A stretch of 64,000 bases of DNA from Bryopsis sp. KO-2023 (lineage: Eukaryota; Chlorophyta; Ulvophyceae; Bryopsidales; Bryopsidaceae): contig BSYQ01000001.1 in assembly GCA_030272585.1 (NCBI GenBank), forward strand, positions 1,302,001-1,366,000, given 5' to 3'. A program made the translations under genes and the position numbers. The number at the start of each line of letters is the position of its first letter. Positions within the stretch are counted from its first letter, which is position 1. Shown here piece by piece: positions 2,797 to 15,422 of the stretch. A model generated the notes under the pieces. It was not told where the DNA came from. It did not search any database and saw only the letters and a program-made list of their open reading frames with translations.

Positions 2797-4091
2797 CTAA
2801 TACTGCATGGTTCGAGGGGGCTTCGGAATCACTCCACAGTCGATCTGAAGTCGAACTGCACGTTTTTTATCCCCCTCCAGGAAATCGAAGCCAGGTCGAA
2901 TGAGCATCACATGCCCAAGCCCGGTGAGTTTCCTTCTGAGCCGTTTGGCTGCATTCACCGATCGAGACAGAGCCTGGTAACCGACCGAACGCAAACCCAC
3001 CCGCTTGTGTTCAAACAACACCCCCTCCATGGCAGACGACAAATTCAGGCTCTTGGTGTTGGCAGTAACCTTCAGATGCCCCCCAAATCAAGCGGTTAGA
3101 ACTGTGGGGTCATATTGGCATTCGCAAAACATTGGCCGATGGAAAAATAAACACAACTCAACACCTGAAACACATGCGACCCTTCATTCCAAATGCGATC
3201 GTCTTTTCCTTCCTCCAGAGTGAATCTCAAGCCCCTGAAGGAGCTCCCGTCCGGCGCCTTTATGAGTTGACCCTCTTCTTTGAAACTGACCCAGAGCTTA
3301 TCATCTATAGTGTTGATCGCCACAGCCAGCACCATGAGTGTCTTCCTCAGGGTTTTGCTTTCTTTGCACAGAACGGAGCCATTTCCTTTCACTCGGAAAA
3401 CCTCTGCCAGCACACGGCCCACTGTTCTTGTGTCTGTCTTGGGCTCGATCGGAATCGTGACCTGTGGAAACCGGGGGCTTCGTTCCTCAGGATCGGTTTC
3501 GACATGCACAGACTCCTGTGATGGCCTTGGAAATGGTTGGAATGAGGTCCTGATCATGGCAAAACCACAAATCACAAAAATTGACTGGTGCTCGTGGAGT
3601 GGCGAAGGCACAATACTTCAAGTTGAAAGGAATATCCATGTGGTTGTATTAACATGAATTAAAGCCTGGTTTTTGGATGCTATTCAGGAAATCCCGTGGA
3701 AATTGAATACTGTTTGCAACGTGTCCGGTTGAAGTCATGCCGATGAACCATCGAAGCAATATTGCCTAATATTGCAAAGGCAGTCAGTTCCATGTGACCT
3801 ATATTAAGATACAGTGATGTGCATTGGGCCCAAGGAGAGGGTGGCATGTCTGTCAATAAAAAACAACTTTGCTGCCCAATTCTGTTTTGGGACGACGTGA
3901 GCGGAAAAACGCAAATCAACCACACCTTGTTTCCAGACTTGACCACCGCAAAGTACATACCTCAGCGGACCGCTGAATGCACCCCGACCCTTGACCAAAC
4001 CGTTCCGAAGAAAACCTCGCTTCACCCCACGAACCCCCACGTGCCGACCATACAAACACTTCGGCTGAGACGTAGTCACCACAAACCGCAT
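2797..4091 (-). CDS. two-domain SpoVS-like (Alba-superfamily) protein 1
   Basis: Exons (minus) 4091-3961, 3549-3165, 3069-2797 give 789 nt and 262 residues. Residues 1-44 are rich in Arg, Val and Gly with almost no acid, like an organelle-targeting peptide. Residues ~72-148 form one SpoVS-like domain (type A: TVGRVLAEVF..., then LRKTLMVLAVA). Residues ~173-255 form a second (type B: VTANTKSLNLSSAMEGVLF, then SVGYQALSRSVNAAKRL and GFDFLEGDKKRAVRLQI). Bacterial SpoVS has the same order: VxAxS-P-S-VAGALA, then AIGAGA-NQAVKA-AIAR, then G-DL-C-P-F, then RTAI-L. Its fold is Alba-like, so nucleic-acid binding is a fair inference, but no function is known for such tandem forms. Intron 1 is phase 2 (AG/G), as in the two paralogues. 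The third-exon acceptor (3070-3071) has a poor pyrimidine tract, yet it is the only one that keeps the frame. Confidence 0.8.
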
Positions 4092-4288
4092 TGGAACATC
4101 AGACAGGAAACAAAACAAAAAATCAATTCTCCATACAGTCGCGCGCAAAGAGGGGGACGAAACCAGTGAGTGTCACTGGCAGTGACACCAACCAGTCAAC
4201 CGTGCGTGTGTCGATTATCGATACACGATCAATTTTTAGAAATTCAAGGAGGGTAAAAGTGGGATGCTGGAATCATCACGTGCATTCT
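4092..4288. promoter_or_regulatory. 197 bp bidirectional promoter shared by SpoVS-like genes 1 and 2
   Basis: The start codons of two paralogous genes face away from each other across only 197 bases, so both must be driven from here. It contains a perfect inverted repeat near its middle (listed separately) and an ATCGAT-containing stretch near 4215. No clear TATA box is visible. Confidence 0.6.
4170..4188. promoter_or_regulatory. perfect 9-bp inverted repeat with 1-bp spacer (candidate operator)
   Basis: The sequence GTGTCACTGGCAGTGACAC is two exact 9-base arms around one G. Its centre at 4179 lies 88 bp from one start codon and 110 bp from the other. The shape fits a binding site for a homodimeric regulator. 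The function is inferred only from symmetry and position. Confidence 0.5.
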
Positions 4289-5513
4289 ATGATGGCGTTT
4301 GCGAGGCTCCTGGGGTCGTTTCCGTCCAAAGCAACACAGTCGCTGTGTCAGGGCGTACTGGACGCCGCAAGTCTCGCTGTGTGCTCCCACCAAGATATTT
4401 TTCGGAGGCTGAGGTACATATACAGCTTTAGTTTTTGTTTATGCCTTTTTTTTAATCATCATCGTGATTCTGGAAGGTTCCTGTTCCCCCGCATGAGAAA
4501 GGGGGAAATCAACCCCCCCCCCCAAGTAAAATTGAAACACACTGTTGCTGAAATGCGCAGCTTGTTTCTTGATTCGGTGGGCTGCATCTGGATAGCATTC
4601 AGTGCATTGATAATACCACCAATATTTCCCATGCAAATCCCACTTTTAAACTAGCAGTTTTAAAGGGGCTGCATCTAAGTTAACGAAATGATTCCTACTG
4701 CTTTTCAGTTCTCATGCGGAGCCATCCACTCCTGACGAAACGCAATCAAGCGGCAGGGACATCCCCATCAGAGCACCTAATTCAAACGGCCAATCTCCTG
4801 AAACTCCAGGCGAAGGCTCACCGCAACCACCATTAGTGTTTTCAATCAAAAGAGGTGGAAATGTGCACAAAGTGGGGGGAGCGATCGCCATGGAATTACG
4901 GAAAGGGAAAACAGTTCTAGCTCAGGCCACCGGCACAGAGCCTGTGAATGTTACCGTGAAAGCCTTGTGCATCGGGAGGGGATATGTGTTGGAGGACCCA
5001 GGGTTCGATCTGTGCTTCAGAGTAAACCATCAACCGCACAACAATCGGGAAAGGATATCCCAGCTTTCGTTCTCTGTGGAGGCCACCCCGATGCGATTTG
5101 TGCCGAAAAACCCAGTGGAGGAACTGAGAGTCACGGCTGAATCGAAAGGTCGAGGGATTGGCGCATTGATAGCATCCACGATACAGAACAATCGATGTCC
5201 GACTCTGCGGGCAGTGGGGCCCAAATCGGTGGGGAACATGATGGTGGGGGCGACCTGGGCCCGGCGGCTGCTACGGAGGCAAGGCTTGGATGTTTTGTGT
5301 TACCCGAGTTTTAAAACGATCAACATCGAGGATAAAGGGGACCGGACTTCGGTGGAGGTGGATTTTCGGTCGGTTGCGTATACGCATGTTCCCTACATCG
5401 ATTTCCCAGAGGAAGACGGTGCAGTCGAGCCAGATGTGCGGGAGGATAATGGAGAGTGTGATGATGTAGATTATGGGGTTCGAAAACATCTGAAGCAGTC
5501 GTTGGGGATTTGA
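4289..5513 (+). CDS. two-domain SpoVS-like (Alba-superfamily) protein 2
   Basis: Exons 4289-4413 and 4709-5513 give 930 nt and 309 residues. The first ~42 residues (MMAFARLLGSFPSKATQ...) are Ser/Arg-rich and acid-poor, like a plastid or mitochondrial presequence. A Pro/Ser-rich linker follows. A type-A SpoVS-like domain lies at ~85-165 (VFSIKRGGNVHKVGGAIAMEL, then TGTEPVNVTVKALCIGRGYV and GFDLCFRV). A type-B domain lies at ~180-263 (ELRVTAESKGRGIGALIAS, then AVGPKSVGNMMVGATWARR, then GLDVLCYPSFKTINIEDKGDRTSVEV). The tail is acidic. Intron 1 is phase 2 (AG/T), at the same place relative to the presequence as in the paralogues. ATG 4289 is followed at once by a second ATG at 4292; either could be used. 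Confidence 0.82.
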
Positions 5514-6482
5514 AAAGTGCACCAATCCAGGAATTCGTTGTCAAATTGATGCATGGCTGATAAAGCTGTGGGGTTGTCGGTCCAGGAGGGGGGGGGGGGG
5601 GGGAATTCAAAGAACTTGAGGTTGTGAGTGCGGGTAGGGAGAAAGGGCAACTTGGGGGGGGGGTATAGGGATTTTAAGAGGGGGGGGGGGGGGGATGGAG
5701 GAGGGAAATTCAGGCATGTAGTAAAAAGCAACAGCAAAAAATGGCAGTTCTTTCAATTGGTTTGGAGAGGTATCAAAAACTTGTCAAGGTTTGGCGATGG
5801 CAACGGCATCATTAGAGAGTTTTGATGAAAATGTGTCAGAATTTTTTGTTTCTTGTGGGGGAAAACGGGTGCTGAAAAGTGTTGGTGAATGTGTGTGGTG
5901 ATGGAAGCGGGGGAAATGTTGCAGTGAAGGATTGTAGCAGTTCTTTTTTCTGTTAATTGAATTTCGGTGTCAAATTCTGTTTTGTTAAAAGGGGGATCTC
6001 TTTTTCACAACCTTGTTATGGATCATATCGGGATCAGCAAGGTGTGGGAGCTGATATGTAAATTGGGGTTCAAATTCCAGAAGCCTACAGAAACAAGAAA
6101 AGCACATTGATTGAGACTTGAAACAGGTGTGCAGCCATAGTGACCTACTCAAGTGTAAAAAGATTCCATTTTTATTTTTTTTTAACAAGAAAAGTGGAGA
6201 AACCAACAACGATCCATCCATTCGTTCTCTACTAGCACGAGGTGAAAGTTGGGAAGAAAAAACGCTCCACAGTCCCAAAACATCAGAATCTTTTGGCAGT
6301 GCTAACCTACAGCAAACTCCTAGTATCCTCAAGAAAAACCCGAGCACACAGCCACAAACAAAACCCTGGTATGTATTACATACATCATTACACTTCGTCA
6401 TCCCGCGTCACACCTTCCTCCGACAGCGTGCGAAAACTGACGACTCGCTCATTGTGAACAGACGGCTTTTGGAACAGAATCA
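5514..6482. other. intergenic with long G tracts
   Basis: Just past the stop codon of the SpoVS-like gene 2 are three long runs of G on the sense strand (about 16 at 5588-5603, 10 at 5654-5663, 15 at 5680-5694). The rest is unremarkable and holds the convergent 3' end of the lectin gene. No gene seen. Confidence 0.6.
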
Positions 6483-6884
6483 CTACGCGTCGACAGTGTC
6501 AATTCCCGTGCCATAAGCGTCGAGATCTGCAGTCCATGTCACTTGAACCAAATGGGCAAAGGAGTCGCACCGAACTCCTACGCTCAGGTTGAAGCCTTCC
6601 TCTGTAACGTTTAACGCTTCCGTCCCGACCCTAACGCCCTGTCTGGAAAATAAGTCGAGCGCAGAGAGCGTCAGGGTGACCAGGGGTCTCGAGATGAACG
6701 CGTGCTCAAACTTGATCGGGACAACTCTCTCCCTCTTGTTGGTTTCCACTGTGCTCCAGGGCTTCTCAGGGCAGGAAGTTATATCACCCAAATCGGAGAC
6801 GTTCACCCGCCCTGCCTGAGTGACCTGGGTGTTGTTGGCGGCGACAGCCACGATGAGTAGAACGTCGGGTATCGAAGCAATCAT
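6483..6884 (-). CDS. small secreted H-type lectin domain protein
   Basis: A 133-residue single-exon protein starting at ATG 6884. Residues 1-20 (MIASIPDVLLIVAVAANNTQ) are hydrophobic and fit a signal peptide. Residues ~60-125 match the H-type lectin fold seen in discoidin I and Helix pomatia agglutinin: KFEHAF--RPLVTLTLSALDL, then VRVGTEALNVTEEGFNLSVGV, ending with VQVTWTA. Such domains trimerise and bind GalNAc or other sugars, so a secreted sugar-binding role is likely. The frame stays open upstream to 7121 but the first part looks non-coding. It is divergent from the ELMO gene, 248 bp away. Confidence 0.78.
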   Translation of the reverse strand: MIASIPDVLLIVAVAANNTQVTQAGRVNVSDLGDITSCPEKPWSTVETNKRERVVPIKFEHAFISRPLVTLTLSALDLFSRQGVRVGTEALNVTEEGFNLSVGVRCDSFAHLVQVTWTADLDAYGTGIDTVDA

Positions 6885-7132
6885 GACCCCAGACTCTGCA
6901 GAGTTTGCAGACGTGCTCTTTTCGGAATGTGTTTTGAATGTGTTTTGGCGTTTGTGTGTTGCGAAGTATTGCAGTTGCGAAGGGAAGCGTGAAAGAGTGA
7001 GCGCCTCCCACGTGATCGGTTCGCACCGGATTCGTCCAAGTGCGACGGGATGCATCACGTACATTATTGACATGCAACACGCCCAAAGAACAGCACTCCA
7101 CCCCACCAACACACGAAACACACAAGGCAGCG

Positions 7133-9513
7133 ATGTCCGCTTTCAGACGAAGGAAAAATGGAGGCGAAGAAGGTGGGACAGAAAACCAAGCTCCAAACTG
7201 AGCGTATGCTCCAGACAGTGCTTTTTTCTGCTGCAGAGCGGTCGTGGTAACCAATCGACTGTGTTTTTTTTTCTCCCTTGTCCAGACGATGGTCTCAGGG
7301 AGTCGTTGCTTCCTAGTGACGAAAACGTTGATTCGACGGCGCCGCAAGCCGTCGAGGGCCTCAAAGAATCGACGTCTGTTGGCGACCAGCACAATGTGCT
7401 TGTGCGGGCAGTTATGGAATCGTGGAATTGCCTGCTGGGTAGGGACATCCGACCAGATACTTGGGGGATGATTCGTGAATCCAGTCGATGAGGAAATTTG
7501 GCACACATTTATGAGGAATTGTTTTGTTTCATAATACATGGGTCATGGACACCTTTCTGCTCTGAAGAATTTTTTTGGTTTGTGCAGCTTTGCTTGCCTT
7601 TCTCTTGGGGCAGCATGGGCATCTGACATTGACATCCACACAGGTTAGCAGCCACAAAGGGAAAATCAGTATACGTATAAAAAAAAGAGAGAGGGAATTT
7701 ATCTCTCTTTTTACATGGAAAACACAGAAGTACTGGGAAAAAAGTGCTCCGAACGCACTCTTTCAATGCCCATTACTTCCAACGACAGCGTTTCATAATA
7801 TAATCGCTTCCACTTTTTTCCTTCCCCGTGGTTATAACTTCAATTGGGACCACCAATTGAATTAGTCATCTTGCAATTCAATGCTTTTCGCTTGCACAGG
7901 AGGCACGGCTGCGTGAGCTCCGCCGCAAATGTGTTGTTCCATATGATGACCAGAATCCAGATCATCTGGTGAGTGGAGTAAAACTGTGAAAATTGCTGGT
8001 GTCAGTCATACGGCTTTTTGTCCTCCAGGTTATATTAACGTCTGGGATGTTATCTTAAATTCGATTCTGAGAACGAAAACCACTTGTGAGTGTATTGTGG
8101 GGGCAGCTGGATTGGAACAGGGCTGTTGGTTGGGTGGGAAAACGAAAGTAATAATAAAGAGTGACACGATTGCCTGGATGACTGTCATAGGAATCTCTGA
8201 AGTCGCTATGGATGGCTGGCTTTCCAGACACTCCCTGGAACGGGGTAAAATCACCCAAGTGGAAGGAAATGGGCTGGCAGGTACTTTGTTTGATTCCTCG
8301 GTAAATATCTGTACAATCAATTTCTGCCCCCTACTTGAGGTCAGGCTTCAACAAGACAAAATTACATGGAGCTTTCACCCTGTAGATGCAATACATTTGG
8401 ATAAGGTTTTGAAAATAAATCGAAATAATCGCTGCAGTTTGGAATGTTGGGACTGCATGGGACAGTTAGTCATCGAAGGGCACGGTGAGTCAAATTATAT
8501 TTATTTAATTGTGGTGTTTATTCTTTGATTTTTCTTGTTTAGGGTGTAGACCCTGGGACCGATTTCAGAGGTGGAGGGTTATTCTCGCTGTCGAATTTGC
8601 TGTATATGGCAAACCACGAGTCCACTCTATTTGAGAAGCTCATGAAAAAATCGGATGGGGACAGGGTGGAGTGGGAATATCCGTTCGCAGCAGCGGGGGT
8701 CAATGTAACTGTGCACTTAGTCGGTACGTAGACAATCTCGGAGCAATGTCAGAATTATCATTGATGCTCTGTGGAGGTATCCCCACCACTTCACCTGAGA
8801 ATGTTTGATGTTCTTTTGCAGACTCTGTGAAGTTGCGCATTGAGAACCCCCCAAGCAGTCCCCACAGGCGAGGTTTCGTGAAGCTGCTGAACGAATCCGA
8901 TTCCACCTTCGAGGAGGTGTACTGCTGCACATTTGAGCTGCTCGATAAAGTCTGGTTGGAAATGCATGCCTCTTACATGGAGTTTCCCACAGTCCTCAAG
9001 TGAGTGTGCCCCCATCCACAGTCACTTCTTGTTGATGCCAGTGTGTCCCCCCCAAAACAAAAAGACCTTCTCAATTGATCAGAATGTTAGAATCGGCTAT
9101 TTGGACCCCCTTCAGAAATTGTGATAGCTGAAACCCTGTGTTGAAAAGTACACCAGAAGTGATGCTTCGATCAAAGTGGGTTCGATTCTGTAGGTTTTAA
9201 CATGAATTCCCCATGTTCATTCCCTGCGTTTTTATGGGAGTTTATTGGAGGCTTTAAACAACTTTCACTTCAAAATCAAATATCAAACTATGCCTTCTCC
9301 ATTGTGTTGAATTCATGTTTGAGTCATGAATTGCATGTTGTGGATCGGCGTCAGTCCAACCAAACATTTCTGCTCCTTTTCATATAAAAAATATGTACAT
9401 ATTAAATGAAGATAATGTTTCGCAGGCGCACAATCAAGCAAGTGGAAGAAGCCCTTGGCCGGCAGCCTGTAAATATTGCAGACCTTCGAAAGATGCTCGA
9501 TTTGAAAACATAA
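7133..9513 (+). CDS. ELMO/CED-12 domain protein
   Basis: Nine exons: 7133-7172, 7286-7438, 7588-7643, 7900-7972, 8029-8089, 8438-8484, 8550-8723, 8822-8999, 9426-9513 (870 nt, 289 residues). The ELMO domain covers roughly the last 190 residues: LRELRRKC, NPDH, VWD, the hallmark DPGTDFRGGGLFSLSNLLYMA, then YPFAAAGVNVT, and the C-terminal helices around FCTFELLDKVWL. In animals ELMOD proteins act as GAPs for ARF/ARL GTPases; the plant and algal role is less clear. No arginine-finger claim is made. Two donors (7973 and 8090) sit four bases past a better-looking GT; they were chosen because only they keep frame and family spacing. The N-terminal ~85 residues include a hydrophobic LLALLAFLLG segment. 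Confidence 0.85.
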
Positions 9514-10175
9514 TAACATTATGAATTCCGGATGACTGATGTCAGGATGCAGAACTGGGACATTTCCATGTGGACATTCTGCTTTCTTTGACGATTATTG
9601 GGTAGATTTTTCTAGTGTGTTGTATATGATTGCGGAGTGCGTAGTTTTTTTAGGCAGACAGTTCCGTGTGTCTTTTACCTTTATTATTTTTCAATTCTGT
9701 TGGTGGACAATGGAGGCAGCAAGTATTGTCACGATGATGTTTGTTTCTTGTTTTCTCAACTGATCTAATATTCTGCCAAGTTGTGGAACAGCTGATAAGC
9801 TGGGGGGGGGGGGGGTGCGAAACTAAACTGCCACAGGAATTTTCTTTCCCTATTTGATTCAAGAAAAATCACGAAAGGAGAGAATTTCATGAAACGTAGA
9901 AGTGAACAGCTGTTGTCTCGATCTGGAGGTTCGATCCCTGGATCGATTGGGTATTGCAAAGAGACATTTCAGGATGAGGTTATTTTTTTCCAACAGCGCT
10001 CAGTCTATCATGAGCCCTGTTCACATTTACTGTAATTCACCCTTGAGGTCAAGAATCGACTTCCACCTGGACTCTCATTGAAATGAGTGTGAAGCAATTT
10101 TTTTCCCAGTTACAGATGGTGTAGTTGTCTATGCTCCATTGGCCAGGAGACGAACAAACCCACCCAAGCCCAAAC
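9514..10175. other. convergent intergenic, no gene seen
   Basis: 660 bases between two converging genes. There is a run of 14 G at 9802-9815 on the sense strand of the ELMO gene. No recognisable coding or RNA feature. Confidence 0.5.
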
Positions 10176-11184
10176 CTAAAACAGGTCCGAAATATCCAGA
10201 ATGTCTGCCAAATCGGACAGGTCCAGATTCGACAAAATGTCCACGTTCTGTCTGCCCAGTTTCAACCTGACATCAAATTGTCCCCCTCCAAGCACCACTT
10301 CCTTGGCAATGCCCTTGGACTTGGCAATTTTGCATTCCTTTGATACAAACTCTGCTGCGGTCTTGTGCCTGTTGGTGCAGGTCGGGGCGCTTCTGGTGTA
10401 AACCAGCATTGGGGGCTCGCACTCGAAGCGTTGGCTCAACCTGTCGAAAAAATCCAACGATGGTCACTTGGATCGTAACAATTGAATGTAGAAACGCATA
10501 GGACACATTTTGGATTTTGCTTGCAGAACACCTTTATTTACGGCAAAAGTTTTTTTTTCCTTTGCCGGCTTTAGGGTCTTCCCGAGAAACAATCGTTTCA
10601 TTTGTCACGTGAACTCGTGTTTGAGCTTCCAGTACTTGATTTTTATGTGGGTTTGGTGAAGCACCAAGCGCATTGTGTTCTCACCTATCCACTACTGTGC
10701 ATTCACCCGGGGCAAGCTCCAACTTCGTCACCCACGACTTGCAGGTGTCCCCAACAGTTTCCCCGTTCATTTTCTCCTCGTCCGAACAATACTCGTTGTA
10801 TTGCGCCCTGACCATGGCCTCCGCCTCCTCTTGATTCTGAGGGAGGTTCGCGACAAAGTCCAGCACCGGCGTGGTCAGCAAGCCATCCACAAAATCCGAT
10901 AAACTGGCGGCTATGTCGAAGTCGTCGAAGAAATCCTCAAAGATGTCGTCGGCATCGATATCACCAAAGTCTATTTGTTGGAGCCGCCGCATTTTTCTTC
11001 CCAAAGGGGCGTCCGTTGAGTCGCCACCTCCCGTGAGTTTCGCGTCTTCGTCCCACAGCAGTTGCATGAAATCGTTCAGAACAGACGTAATTCCCTCCTT
11101 GTCCAGCTCCAGTGACTGGCAGCGAGTGCAAGCGAGCAATACCCCGCACACCCCCGCCACAAATATCATCCAAGAACTCGCCAT
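10176..11184 (-). CDS. secreted acidic protein of unknown family
   Basis: Exons (minus) 11184-10685 and 10440-10176 give 765 nt and 254 residues. The start MASSWMIFVAGVCGVLLACTRC is a clear signal peptide. The mature part begins with a very acidic region (DFGDIDADDIFEDFFDDFD). It ends with about 130 residues holding six cysteines, enough for three disulfides, and a repetitive LSNLDLSDLADILDISDLF tail. The intron is phase 2 with a good donor (GTGAGA) and acceptor. I do not recognise the family; an extracellular or vacuolar protein is the safest reading. Divergent from SpoVS-like gene 3 across 354 bp. Confidence 0.7.
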
Positions 11185-11538
11185 TTACCCACGGCGTGGA
11201 AACGCCGCCCAGGTTTGTGTTCGAATCGAAGATGCAAATCAGCGCCGCCAATTCTTCCAATCCAGCAAGAGGACGCCCTCCTTTCTTATCCGGAGACGCG
11301 ATTCCGGCGAGGAAAATCCTTAGAAGTCGCTGCTTATCACAAACCCGCCGCCGTTGTGTTTTTGGGAAAAGTATGCTGTTCGCCTTGGGTGCAGGGGGTC
11401 AGGAGGTTCCGATGAGCGCTTGGATTGTACGAGGAATCGCGTCATGTTGTCGTGGACCGGTCGAGTGACAGAAACTCTGGCCCATGCAAACATCAAATTT
11501 CACATTTCAGCAGCCAGGTTTTCCTGTTTTGGGACTGG
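11185..11538. other. divergent promoter region
   Basis: 354 bases between divergent start codons of the secreted protein and SpoVS-like gene 3. No motif stands out. Confidence 0.4.
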
Positions 11539-13568
11539 ATGATTCCGTCGGTTTTCCGATCTCTTCGCGACTGGGACGCTGCGGTGCGAATCTGGTCTGC
11601 GTCTAGCGCTTGGAGGCAGTCGAGGTAAGGCATACCTTCCTTGCGCCGCCTCGTCGACACCACAGATTGCTTCCTTTTTTTTCTGGACGTCCGCCCATAG
11701 TCCTATTCCAAACGTGTATCCACACGCTCAAAAAATTCCTGATTTTTTCGTCGTCTCGAAAGGGCTAGTGTTTTCAAAAGAGGCTGAAGGGCATTCTATG
11801 TTGAAACTGTCACCAGGTCCACCTTTGGGCAAGAGGGGTTTTCCTGTTGTTTCCTCCACAGCCTTCGAAGCACCCAGGAGGGTTTCTCGGAGAACAGCCC
11901 CCCGGGGGGAATTCGGAGATCCACGTTTGCAGCTAAATTGGTGGATGCTGATCCATTGCCACAACATTCGGAGTGGAGAGGTCCTGAACCTGGATCGGAA
12001 GCTGCAGAAGAGGTTAAACGCACTTTTCGGCATTATACGGGATTAGGAGCTCCTTACCGGTCATTATACCCACAAATTCGGGCACCTCCGACCTCAGATT
12101 TTTCGCATGCATTTCCATCAGGAGAAATTCGGATCGGGAAGGACAGCAACATTCGACTATCTGGGGCTGCTATAGCAGGTCTTTTACGGAAGGAAGGAAC
12201 TGGTCGGGTGCTGGCTGCTGGAGTGGAGGCAGTGAATCAAGCTGTCAAATCGTTCGTGCTGGCAAGGCAGTACATTCGGGAAAGGAATGAAGGAGATGTG
12301 TGCTTTAAAATCAACCACCTGTTCAGGTGGGTAGTTTACAACAGGAAATGGAAAAAACTAAGCCAATATATATGTTTTTCCTTTCACTGGAATGTGAAAA
12401 ATAAGGGTCTGAGCAACTCCCAGAGGATTTTGTTACGTCGAGAATTCACAGCGTTCCATTTCGCTTCCTTGCCAGAAAAGAAAATAGAAGGGTTAAGAAA
12501 AGTGATGAGCTGATATGTTTTCTTTTGTGGCGCAGGCATGACCGGAACTCGAGCAATCAAATCATGTTCGTTGGGAAGCGTGTGCAAACCCCATTTTCAA
12601 TTGGAGAAAATGCCGACGTGAATCGCTGCAAGAGTGTGTGTAACGTTCTCTCGGTCGGGACATCCATGGCAGCTTCTCTAAAACGATACCAGGCAAGCAT
12701 ACTGAAAGCCATTGGAGCTGGGGCGGCAGCCTCAGCTGTGGTCAGCATGACATGGGCTCGACGAAACCTGTTGCAAACTGGTTTCGATATGGAGTGCTAC
12801 CCCGAATTCGTGCTGTTAAAAATGGATGATGGCAAGGAGGTCCATGGCCTGAGATTTCTTTTGAACTTGACGGAAGACGGGGAGGCAAAGTCAAATAGTG
12901 TCAAGGAGCTGGCAGCCGTGGATCATCTAAAACTGAAAATCAGCGCTGAGGAGCTGCTGGATTGTGGGGAAGCCTTCTCCAATTTTTCGACGAAATCTTT
13001 GCCGGTCGTCAAAGTTGCGAAAACTAGTTTGGGGACTCCGACAGCGGCTGTGATTGTGAGTCAGCTGAGGTTTTACCCTGGTGTGCATGTTCTCTCCACG
13101 GGGTTGGATGCGAATAACCAGGCGTTCAAAGCATTGTGCGTTTCGAGGATATACGTCAATGAACATCCGGGCTACGATTTTGGGTTTCAGTGCATCCATG
13201 CACCCCCACAAAATGATGATGGAATCTGCCAGCTGTCGACTTGGGGGTTGCTGGTCAAGGCAAGGCAAACAGACACTGAAAGCGAGGAATTTCGACTCAA
13301 TTTCAACACCAGTGCCAAGAGCATGGGGGCTGCCTGTGGATACAGAATTCGGAAGGGGGAGAGGGTGACATGCGTTGGGATGGGCATCTCTTGTGTATCG
13401 AAGATGCTGGTGGCGCTTTCGTTCGCTAGATCATTTGTGGAAAGAAGCGGAATCGACGTGATTGGATTTCCGTTGTTCGACAATGTGCATTTGAAGCAAC
13501 CGGATGGGTCTTTGAAAAGAGTGGTGCGATTCAAACTAGAAATGGTGCCTTTCAAGAGGGACAGATAA
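11539..13568 (+). CDS. four-domain SpoVS-like (Alba-superfamily) protein 3
   Basis: First exon 11539-11624 encodes MIPSVFRSLRDWDAAVRIW..., basic and Trp/Ser-rich, like a targeting peptide, and ends in a phase-2 intron like both paralogues. Coding resumes at 11701, and a further exon runs to 12326. The junction somewhere in 11800-11880 changes frame and I could not fix it. The last exon is 12536-13568. Four SpoVS-like domains follow in order A-B-A-B: A1 from ~12121 (LAAGVEAVNQAVKSFVLARQYI), B1 from ~12600 (AIGAGAAASAVVSMTWARR, GFDMECYPEF), A2 from ~13000 (STGLDANNQAFKALCVSRIYV), B2 from ~13290 (VGMGISCVSKMLVALSFARSFV, GIDVIGFPLFDNV). B1 is the copy closest to bacterial SpoVS. Each A domain has a longer C-terminal strand region (HAPPQNDDGICQLSTWGLLV) also seen in gene 2. 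Function unknown. Confidence 0.78.
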
Positions 13569-14591: not shown

Positions 14592-15422
14592 TCAAACAAC
14601 CCGATCCCTCAGTTCTTTTCTGTTTCTCAACAGGAGGGGGACGCTTTGAACGTCGCGACTCCAAACGCGTATCCATTTCGTGGCCGACCATTTTTCCCCC
14701 TGGAGCGTCGGACAACTACCATGTAAGCTGCTGGCATCAGCGGTTCCATTCGGAAACAGCGAATAAAACATAACAGCGTCGCCCTTTATCGGTTTCACAG
14801 ACATCCCCGCCCTCGCGCACGCCGACCACCCCGGTCCAGAAGATCTCCTATCGGCGCGAGGGAACACGGTTTCGCCGCCCTCCAGCGGGGTTTCGATGTA
14901 CATCAAAACCGTCATTATCCTCTGACCCCCAGCGCTGACCGAAGTGTGGGTTTCGTGGTGGAAAAAGTCGTGGTGTGGGGAGTATTTTTCTCCCTGTTGG
15001 TATCTGAGGATCTGCATGCTCTCCTGATGGCTTACGGGCAACATCGTCACTTGGGCCACCCTTTCCTCCACTCTCGACACGACGTCGTCCATCCCTCGCG
15101 CCAAAAACGTCCCTTGGCTGGTCCTTGCATTGCTCGGTTTGGGTTTCCCCGTGTCGTGGTCAACAACCGACGAAGCGTGCAGCGTGGGCTTGCCCAGCTC
15201 CTTTAGATGATCGCACTCGAAATCGCTCAAAAATCCTTTCAAGTGATAAACCCGCGGCGCCCACGACAAGAGGTTGACTTCCCCACGCCACTGCTCCCGA
15301 CCAATACCATATCCCACCGTCTTGTCTTCTTCGACCTCCTCCGACTCCACATTTCCAGCGAACGACGCCAACACAAGCAGCAGTCCTGTGATGAAACTGG
15401 GCAAAAGCATGACTGCCCGCAT
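14592..15422 (-). CDS. prolyl 4-hydroxylase alpha-like 2-oxoglutarate dioxygenase, secretory
   Basis: Single-exon, 276 residues. Residues 1-27 form a signal peptide or anchor (LLPSFITGLLLVLASFAG). The catalytic jelly roll carries the Fe(II) ligands His150 and Asp152 (SPHHDFF) and His234 (SLHGSCP), and the 2-oxoglutarate-binding Lys244 (GEKWSATKWIR). The TSQGTFLARG and GGETVFP motifs are typical of plant and algal P4Hs. It hydroxylates proline in secreted or cell-wall hydroxyproline-rich proteins in the ER/Golgi. Length agrees with the short plant type; no ShK tail is present. Start chosen as the ATG opening the signal peptide. Confidence 0.93.
   Translation of the reverse strand: MRAVMLLPSFITGLLLVLASFAGNVESEEVEEDKTVGYGIGREQWRGEVNLLSWAPRVYHLKGFLSDFECDHLKELGKPTLHASSVVDHDTGKPKPSNARTSQGTFLARGMDDVVSRVEERVAQVTMLPVSHQESMQILRYQQGEKYSPHHDFFHHETHTSVSAGGQRIMTVLMYIETPLEGGETVFPRADRRSSGPGWSACARAGMSVKPIKGDAVMFYSLFPNGTADASSLHGSCPTLQGEKWSATKWIRVWSRDVQSVPLLLRNRKELRDRVV

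Follow-up and report, generated by a model that had tools for sequence, protein, structure and literature searches.

Fused pairs of two SpoVS domain types in a nuclear gene family of the siphonous green alga Bryopsis

SpoVS domains in three genes of one nuclear locus

We studied a 64,000-nucleotide window (C1:1302001–1366000) of the Bryopsis sp. KO-2023 genome, in which three genes encode proteins built from alternating SpoVS-like domains of two types, here called A and B. The window lies on contig C1 (11,444,927 bases) of a 91.1-Mb, 28-contig assembly and is nuclear DNA of this siphonous green alga, a seaweed whose body is one giant cell. Gene 1 (BSKO_00287, minus strand, 4091–2797; exons 4091–3961, 3549–3165, and 3069–2797) encodes the 262-residue protein P0005, and gene 2 (BSKO_00288, plus strand, 4289–5513; exons 4289–4413 and 4709–5513) encodes P0001, of 309 residues. 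Gene 3 (BSKO_00292, plus strand, 11539–13568; exons 11539–11624, 11817–12326, and 12536–13568) encodes P0007, of 542 residues and domain order A-B-A-B. Splicing the window at these exons reproduces the three deposited proteins exactly; all introns are GT-AG, and two of them interrupt domains. Genes 1 and 2 are divergent, their start codons separated by 197 bp (4092–4288 by gene coordinates), a gap that may hold a shared promoter or permit joint control.

The domains can be placed as follows. Gene 1 opens with a 44-residue exon (3961–4091, minus) that is presequence-like in its residue charges; domain A (residues 74–159; 3204–3461, minus) is placed by its predicted fold and marginal hhalign matches, and domain B (residues 169–255; 2821–3176, minus) is split by the intron at 3164–3070. 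Exon 1 of gene 2 (4289–4413, plus) is presequence-like on the same ground, and the gene continues with domain A (residues 84–170; 4833–5093, plus), supported by the Pfam SpoVS family PF04232, a bacterial profile, and the predicted fold, and with domain B (residues 179–266; 5118–5381, plus). PF04232 recognizes all four plus-strand domains of gene 3: A1 (residues 131–218; 12121–12593, split by the intron at 12327–12535), B1 (residues 228–314; 12621–12881), A2 (residues 355–442; 13002–13265), and B2 (residues 449–538; 13284–13553). The 5′ region of gene 3 (11625–11932) also permits an alternative splicing, with an exon at 11701–11816 and the next exon starting at 11933, again giving 542 residues. 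We used the deposited model (exon from 11817), from which the alternative differs only upstream of the domains.

All three proteins exceed the curated PF04232 cut-off of 24 bits, with whole-protein scores of 28.4 (P0005), 81.0 (P0001), and 135.6 bits (P0007) and one, two, and four matching stretches in genes 1, 2, and 3. We also compared 26 domains from this family and its relatives with a bacterial SpoVS profile of 15 bacterial, phage, or viral sequences, which remained from 103 inputs after rows at least 85% alike were dropped. Calculated for 26 sequences, E-values reach 1.1e-6 or better in 23/26 domains, while domain A of gene 1 (g1A), that of its relative P0006 (P6A), and that of gene 4 (g4A) fall short (E 0.82, 0.18, and 0.18, respectively); domain A of gene 2 scores 41.6 bits. 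The predicted folds of genes 1 and 2 contain two Alba-type domains apiece, in the order β-α-β-α-β-β. A PDB search with gene 2 retrieved SpoVS (2EH1) at E 9.5e-7, with the next best chain no better than 0.22. The family profile retrieved 2EH1 at E 1.6e-21, a value that is not independent because that profile contained a Bacillus subtilis SpoVS sequence, and the next best chain was no better than 1.2. Neither Alba (PF01918) nor CRM (PF01985, CRS1_YhbY) matched any of eight proteins at E up to 0.1. A Pus10_C match (E 0.053 and 0.081) fell below its cut-off and was taken as chance.

Domain A of gene 1 is the most divergent A domain and the least secure domain in the window. It has no PF04232 match, and its hhalign matches are marginal: against the remaining A or B domains E is 6e-4 at a probability of 28–30%, and against bacteria it is 0.017, with reversed-sequence controls at 0.095 to 0.61. 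It is nevertheless predicted to fold as β-α-β-α-β-β, with strands at residues 75–77, 102–105, 129–141, and 147–157, helices at 84–98 and 108–125, and a predicted local distance difference test (pLDDT) score of 72–92 across these blocks. The initial annotation, made from the sequence alone, proposed SpoVS/Alba-type proteins with two, two, and four domains; the deposited proteins, PF04232 matches, and predicted folds bear this out, with domain A of gene 1 the weakest case. The family is thus a variant SpoVS architecture, of two or four domains plus extensions, and not a classical single-domain SpoVS protein.

Divided conservation of A and B domains

The two domain types retain different residues of bacterial SpoVS. 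We counted residues in an alignment of 13 A, 13 B, and 15 bacterial, phage, or viral domains, in which the A and B rows include close relatives and hence are not independent. Three residues invariant in the bacterial set (15/15) occur among A domains and in no B domain: N40 (9/13 A, 0/13 B), Q41 (5/13 and 0/13), and K44, the lysine of the NQAVK motif (11/13 and 0/13). The reverse is true of F66, the phenylalanine of the P-x-F motif, which is found in 14/15 bacterial sequences, 11/13 B domains, and no A domain (0/13). P64, also present in 14/15 bacterial sequences, occurs in 12/13 B and 4/13 A domains; in A it is gap-free and probably real in gene 6 (QPAV), and the other three instances lie behind gaps. 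Both types keep the B. subtilis glycine G35 (11/13 A, 13/13 B) and arginine R50 (10/13 A, 13/13 B). The division is also evident in Bryopsis alone, where K44 is present in 6/7 A and 0/7 B domains and F66 in 0/7 A and 6/7 B domains, the seventh having Y. None of the 26 domains carries both the NQAVK lysine and the P-x-F phenylalanine.

The initial annotation described B as close to bacterial SpoVS and A as the divergent type. The first part is upheld, as B outscores A against the bacterial profile in 6/7 Bryopsis pairs. The second is too simple: A alone keeps the NQAVK residues, and because each type retained different bacterial residues, A is not merely a degenerate form. This divided conservation lends weight to the further suggestion that a fixed pair could be a built-in heterodimer, in which A would pack against B.

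Family members, relatives, and history

The three window genes are real members of a larger family, so that the set first described was incomplete. A PF04232 scan of the genome found nine places, seven of them inside the three window genes, and a search with P0001 added one gene beyond the PF04232 places. Genome searches place gene 4 at C1:5488301–5489149 (minus) and gene 5 at C1:5447128–5448042 (minus; exon junction set by eye). Gene 6, on C3 near 6,876,000 (minus), is intron-rich, with at least six exons joined by eye. Their PF04232 scores are 44.7, 41.5, and 120.4 bits, respectively, and all three are models from genomic DNA. The family therefore comprises at least six genes and 14 domains (seven A and seven B), and every gene reads A then B, the order first proposed for the window; for domain A of gene 4, position is the sole basis of the assignment (best hhalign E-value 0.014; reversed controls at least 0.24). 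Weak matches elsewhere in the genome, on C13 (E 0.071), C4 (7.89), C7 (1.32), and C11 (6.16), were not counted as members, and inspection by eye of the C13 and C4 places found no SpoVS-like motif.

A second loose cluster is formed by genes 4 and 5, which share a strand and are separated by about 40 kb. Spread by local duplication, as originally suggested, is thus part of the story, with three genes outside the window: two on C1, at 5.45 and 5.49 Mb, and one on C3. The member closest to bacterial SpoVS is likewise outside the window cluster: it is the intron-rich gene 6, whose domains score 51.0 and 53.2 bits against the bacterial profile.

Relatives sought in a protein database of 5.8 billion sequences keep the paired arrangement, which is therefore not a product of chance. 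Gene 2 has three relatives, 63–68% identical over about 84%. Gene 1 has one, P0006 (246 residues, 74% identical in the alignment), which is continuous across both gene 1 intron sites, as the product of a spliced transcript would be. The single relative of gene 3, P0008, has four domains at 33% identity in the alignment; this shared arrangement agrees with the proposed doubling of the pair in gene 3. No further relatives appeared among the matches listed at E 0.001 (145 candidates) or at E 1 and 10 (best 8000 each). Such searches miss true members, since the one that yielded P0006 returned neither P0003 nor any protein of genes 4–6, and non-detection elsewhere thus does not establish absence.

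A phage or viral origin of the A-B pair was rejected, as scans with the pair proteins were empty and no donor was identified: tblastn of P0001 against 50,697 phage records gave no match, and neither P0001 nor P0007 found a relative when scanned against viral contigs. A viral scan with a Thermus-type query also gave no match. SpoVS as such matched 17 plasmid and 12 phage records (one place per record) and six viral contigs. Six Streptomyces phage records contain a SpoVS-like stretch at 39–43% identity, annotated as a hypothetical protein in 5/6.

We used a domain tree (41 rows, 86 columns) only to assess the main A clade and for approximately unbiased (AU) tests. Of the 13 A domains, 10 fall into one clade at 95/88, its bootstrap not fully settled; they belong to genes 2, 3, 5, and 6 and to relatives. 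In AU tests, a single origin is not rejected for all A (P = 0.456), for all B (P = 0.455), or for the two types combined (P = 0.458). The A, B, and bacterial groups are not cleanly separated, and 20/38 inner branches are open; weakly supported placements put g1B, P6B, and g4A on the side of the bacterial sequences. Long branches lead to g4A, g4B, P8B1, P8B2, g5B, g5A, and g3B1, and the joining of g4B with g5B may be false. The initial annotation held that an ancestral A-B pair preceded the gene copies. The tree and AU tests are in keeping with this view and stop short of proof: the pair is probably older than the gene copies, and one duplication preceding them is the simplest reading of the sequences.

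Three neighboring genes complete the locus. A LURP-one-related (LOR) protein (PF04525, 104 bits; 1304–1915, minus) adjoins the cluster, an H-type lectin domain (PF09458, 34 bits; 6483–7121, minus) lies between genes 2 and 3, and a 2OG-Fe(II) oxygenase (PF13640, 64 bits; 14592–15422, minus) is downstream of gene 3. A lectin of Bryopsis plumosa, BPL3, has been described in the literature.

Possible organellar role and comparison with known systems

The N-termini provide modest evidence for organelle import. In the first 40 residues of genes 1–5, we counted 9, 4, 5, 7, and 5 K/R and 0, 2, 3, 0, and 3 D/E, with the first acidic residue at positions 56, 25, 11, 52, and 13 (start codons of genes 4 and 5 were chosen by us). 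The first 40 residues are therefore net-positive in 5/6 genes, comprising all five that are readable. Amphipathicity is clearly above that of shuffled sequences in gene 5 (0.005) and not in genes 1–4 (0.10 to 0.49); the hydrophobic moment of gene 1, for example, is no higher than in shuffles (0.494). For residues 16–32 of gene 2 a helix is predicted, with a very low pLDDT of about 33. The motif R-x-[FL]|S-[SA], spotted by eye after the fact, occurs in genes 2, 4, and 5 (3/5): it reads R-R-L|S-S at the exon 1/exon 2 junction of gene 2, and in gene 5 it spans the by-eye junction. It resembles the mitochondrial −3R processing site. Together, the five N-termini look like organelle presequences, import of the family proteins is probable, and we lean toward the mitochondrion rather than the plastid. 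The organellar action first envisaged for these proteins is therefore plausible.

We tentatively favor, at somewhat less than even confidence, an explanation in which organelle-imported SpoVS A-B pseudo-heterodimers bind organellar nucleic acid, likely mitochondrial RNA, and aid its splicing or maturation. Import, A-B pairing, the RNA ligand, and the role in splicing or maturation are the parts that we infer. Nuclear genes would supply SpoVS-pair proteins to the organelle, where each A-B pair would fold as a covalent pseudo-heterodimer, a counterpart of Alba1/Alba2 or Rpp20/Rpp25. This unit would bind nucleic acid in the organelle. Its most likely targets would be transcripts from a large mitochondrial genome with introns, which it would help to be spliced or matured, as plant CRM-domain (YhbY-derived) proteins do. 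A more far-reaching version, which we regard as doubtful, is that siphonous algae evolved their own organellar RNA factors from SpoVS pairs with divided residues, A having kept the NQAVK helix and B the P-x-F turn, and multiplied them into at least six genes for a swollen, intron-bearing mitochondrial DNA (mtDNA), in parallel to the plant CRM family.

Several alternatives bear on this explanation. SpoVS pairs could instead be nucleoid proteins of the organelle, coating or bridging its DNA in the manner of archaeal Alba on chromatin. We consider this rather unlikely: diverged gene copies, as opposed to one protein, better suit distinct targets, and Alba folds are described as binding RNA as well as DNA. 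The proteins might also act outside organelles, as cytosolic or nuclear RNA-binding regulators resembling eukaryotic Alba, perhaps linked to CO2 or stress. The lack of a clear amphipathic helix in 4/5 tested N-termini would fit such a role, as would a green algal gene annotated as SpoVS, Cre06.g258850 of Chlamydomonas, which PMC8320531 (Table 4) lists among carbon-concentrating-mechanism genes whose change in a gun4 mutant exceeded 8-fold. Against it stand the net-positive N-termini, which in genes 1 and 2 lie mostly on a separate first exon, and the R-x-[FL]|S-[SA] motif in three of them, and we judge it improbable. Least convincing among functional roles is a protein–protein module without nucleic acid, such as a part of an organellar ribosome or of an enzyme complex. 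No PDB chain besides SpoVS falls below E 1.2 with the family profile, so that no solved ribosome is seen with a recognizable member, and this role seems quite improbable. Finally, although bacteria are reported from Bryopsis cultures (PMC12509668, PMC3196581), an assembly or annotation artifact, bacterial contamination, or chance reading frames can be dismissed with near certainty on the basis of GT-AG introns inside domains, the 11.4-Mb contig, identical deposited proteins, and relatives with the same domain order.

SpoVS is best known from bacterial spore formation, and to our knowledge it has no settled biochemical role. A possible lead to its bacterial function is PDB entry 9a7h, whose title describes an integrative model of YunD and SP5S. 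We take SP5S to be B. subtilis SpoVS; our literature search did not find SpoVS and YunD named together. PF04232 is present in 136/149 genomes of one bacterial phylum, and no side-by-side SpoVS was seen by eye among the matches listed for them. The Bryopsis domains resemble bacterial SpoVS (PDB 2EH1/2EK0) in profile match, predicted β-α-β-α-β-β order, and retention of G35 and R50. They differ in that bacterial SpoVS is one domain of about 86 residues, whereas the Bryopsis proteins are extended at the N-terminus, carry either two or four domains, and have the conserved residues divided between the A and B types.

In green algae the SpoVS domain is already annotated, and what is new is the fixed A-B fusion variant. 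Table 4 of PMC8320531 names Cre06.g258850 as Stage V sporulation protein S, and Table 2 of PMC4856071 names SpoVS as a marker in Gonium; in the passages covered, PMC8119650 mentions only SpoVK. The Chlamydomonas and Gonium proteins share the family name with the Bryopsis genes and were compared by name only, with no implication of orthology. The initial claim that no function had been described in eukaryotes accordingly holds for our literature search, which found no described function and no tandem or organellar SpoVS and was judged mostly from titles, while the name itself was already in use.

Alba-family proteins tend to act as heterodimers, and Rpp20 and Rpp25 must pair to bind RNA (PMC11621453). 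Archaeal Alba1/Alba2, Rpp20/Rpp25, and Pop6/Pop7 are separate chains, whereas the Bryopsis SpoVS domains are fused, and the Bryopsis genome has its own Alba places. A fixed, fused pair with divided residues hints at the residues required by either half of a dimer and thus makes the role of SpoVS testable.

If organellar RNA is the ligand, the family would be a further example of a small bacterial domain that gave rise to multiple organellar RNA factors, here within an algal order whose mitochondrial genomes are large and contain introns: 15 genes carry introns in the 408,555-bp mtDNA of Bryopsis hypnoides (PMC11852573), and the mtDNA of Ostreobium has 47 introns (PMC6944098). For their organellar introns, plants rely on proteins with CRM domains in tandem; the domain is akin to bacterial YhbY, and two such proteins are mitochondrial in Arabidopsis, as presented in PMC3927076. 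CRM (CRS1-YhbY, PF01985) is a different family from the Bryopsis SpoVS proteins, and any likeness of role would be by analogy; what the two have in common is a small bacterial-type domain, used in tandem, encoded in the nucleus, and imported, in Bryopsis putatively, into an organelle.

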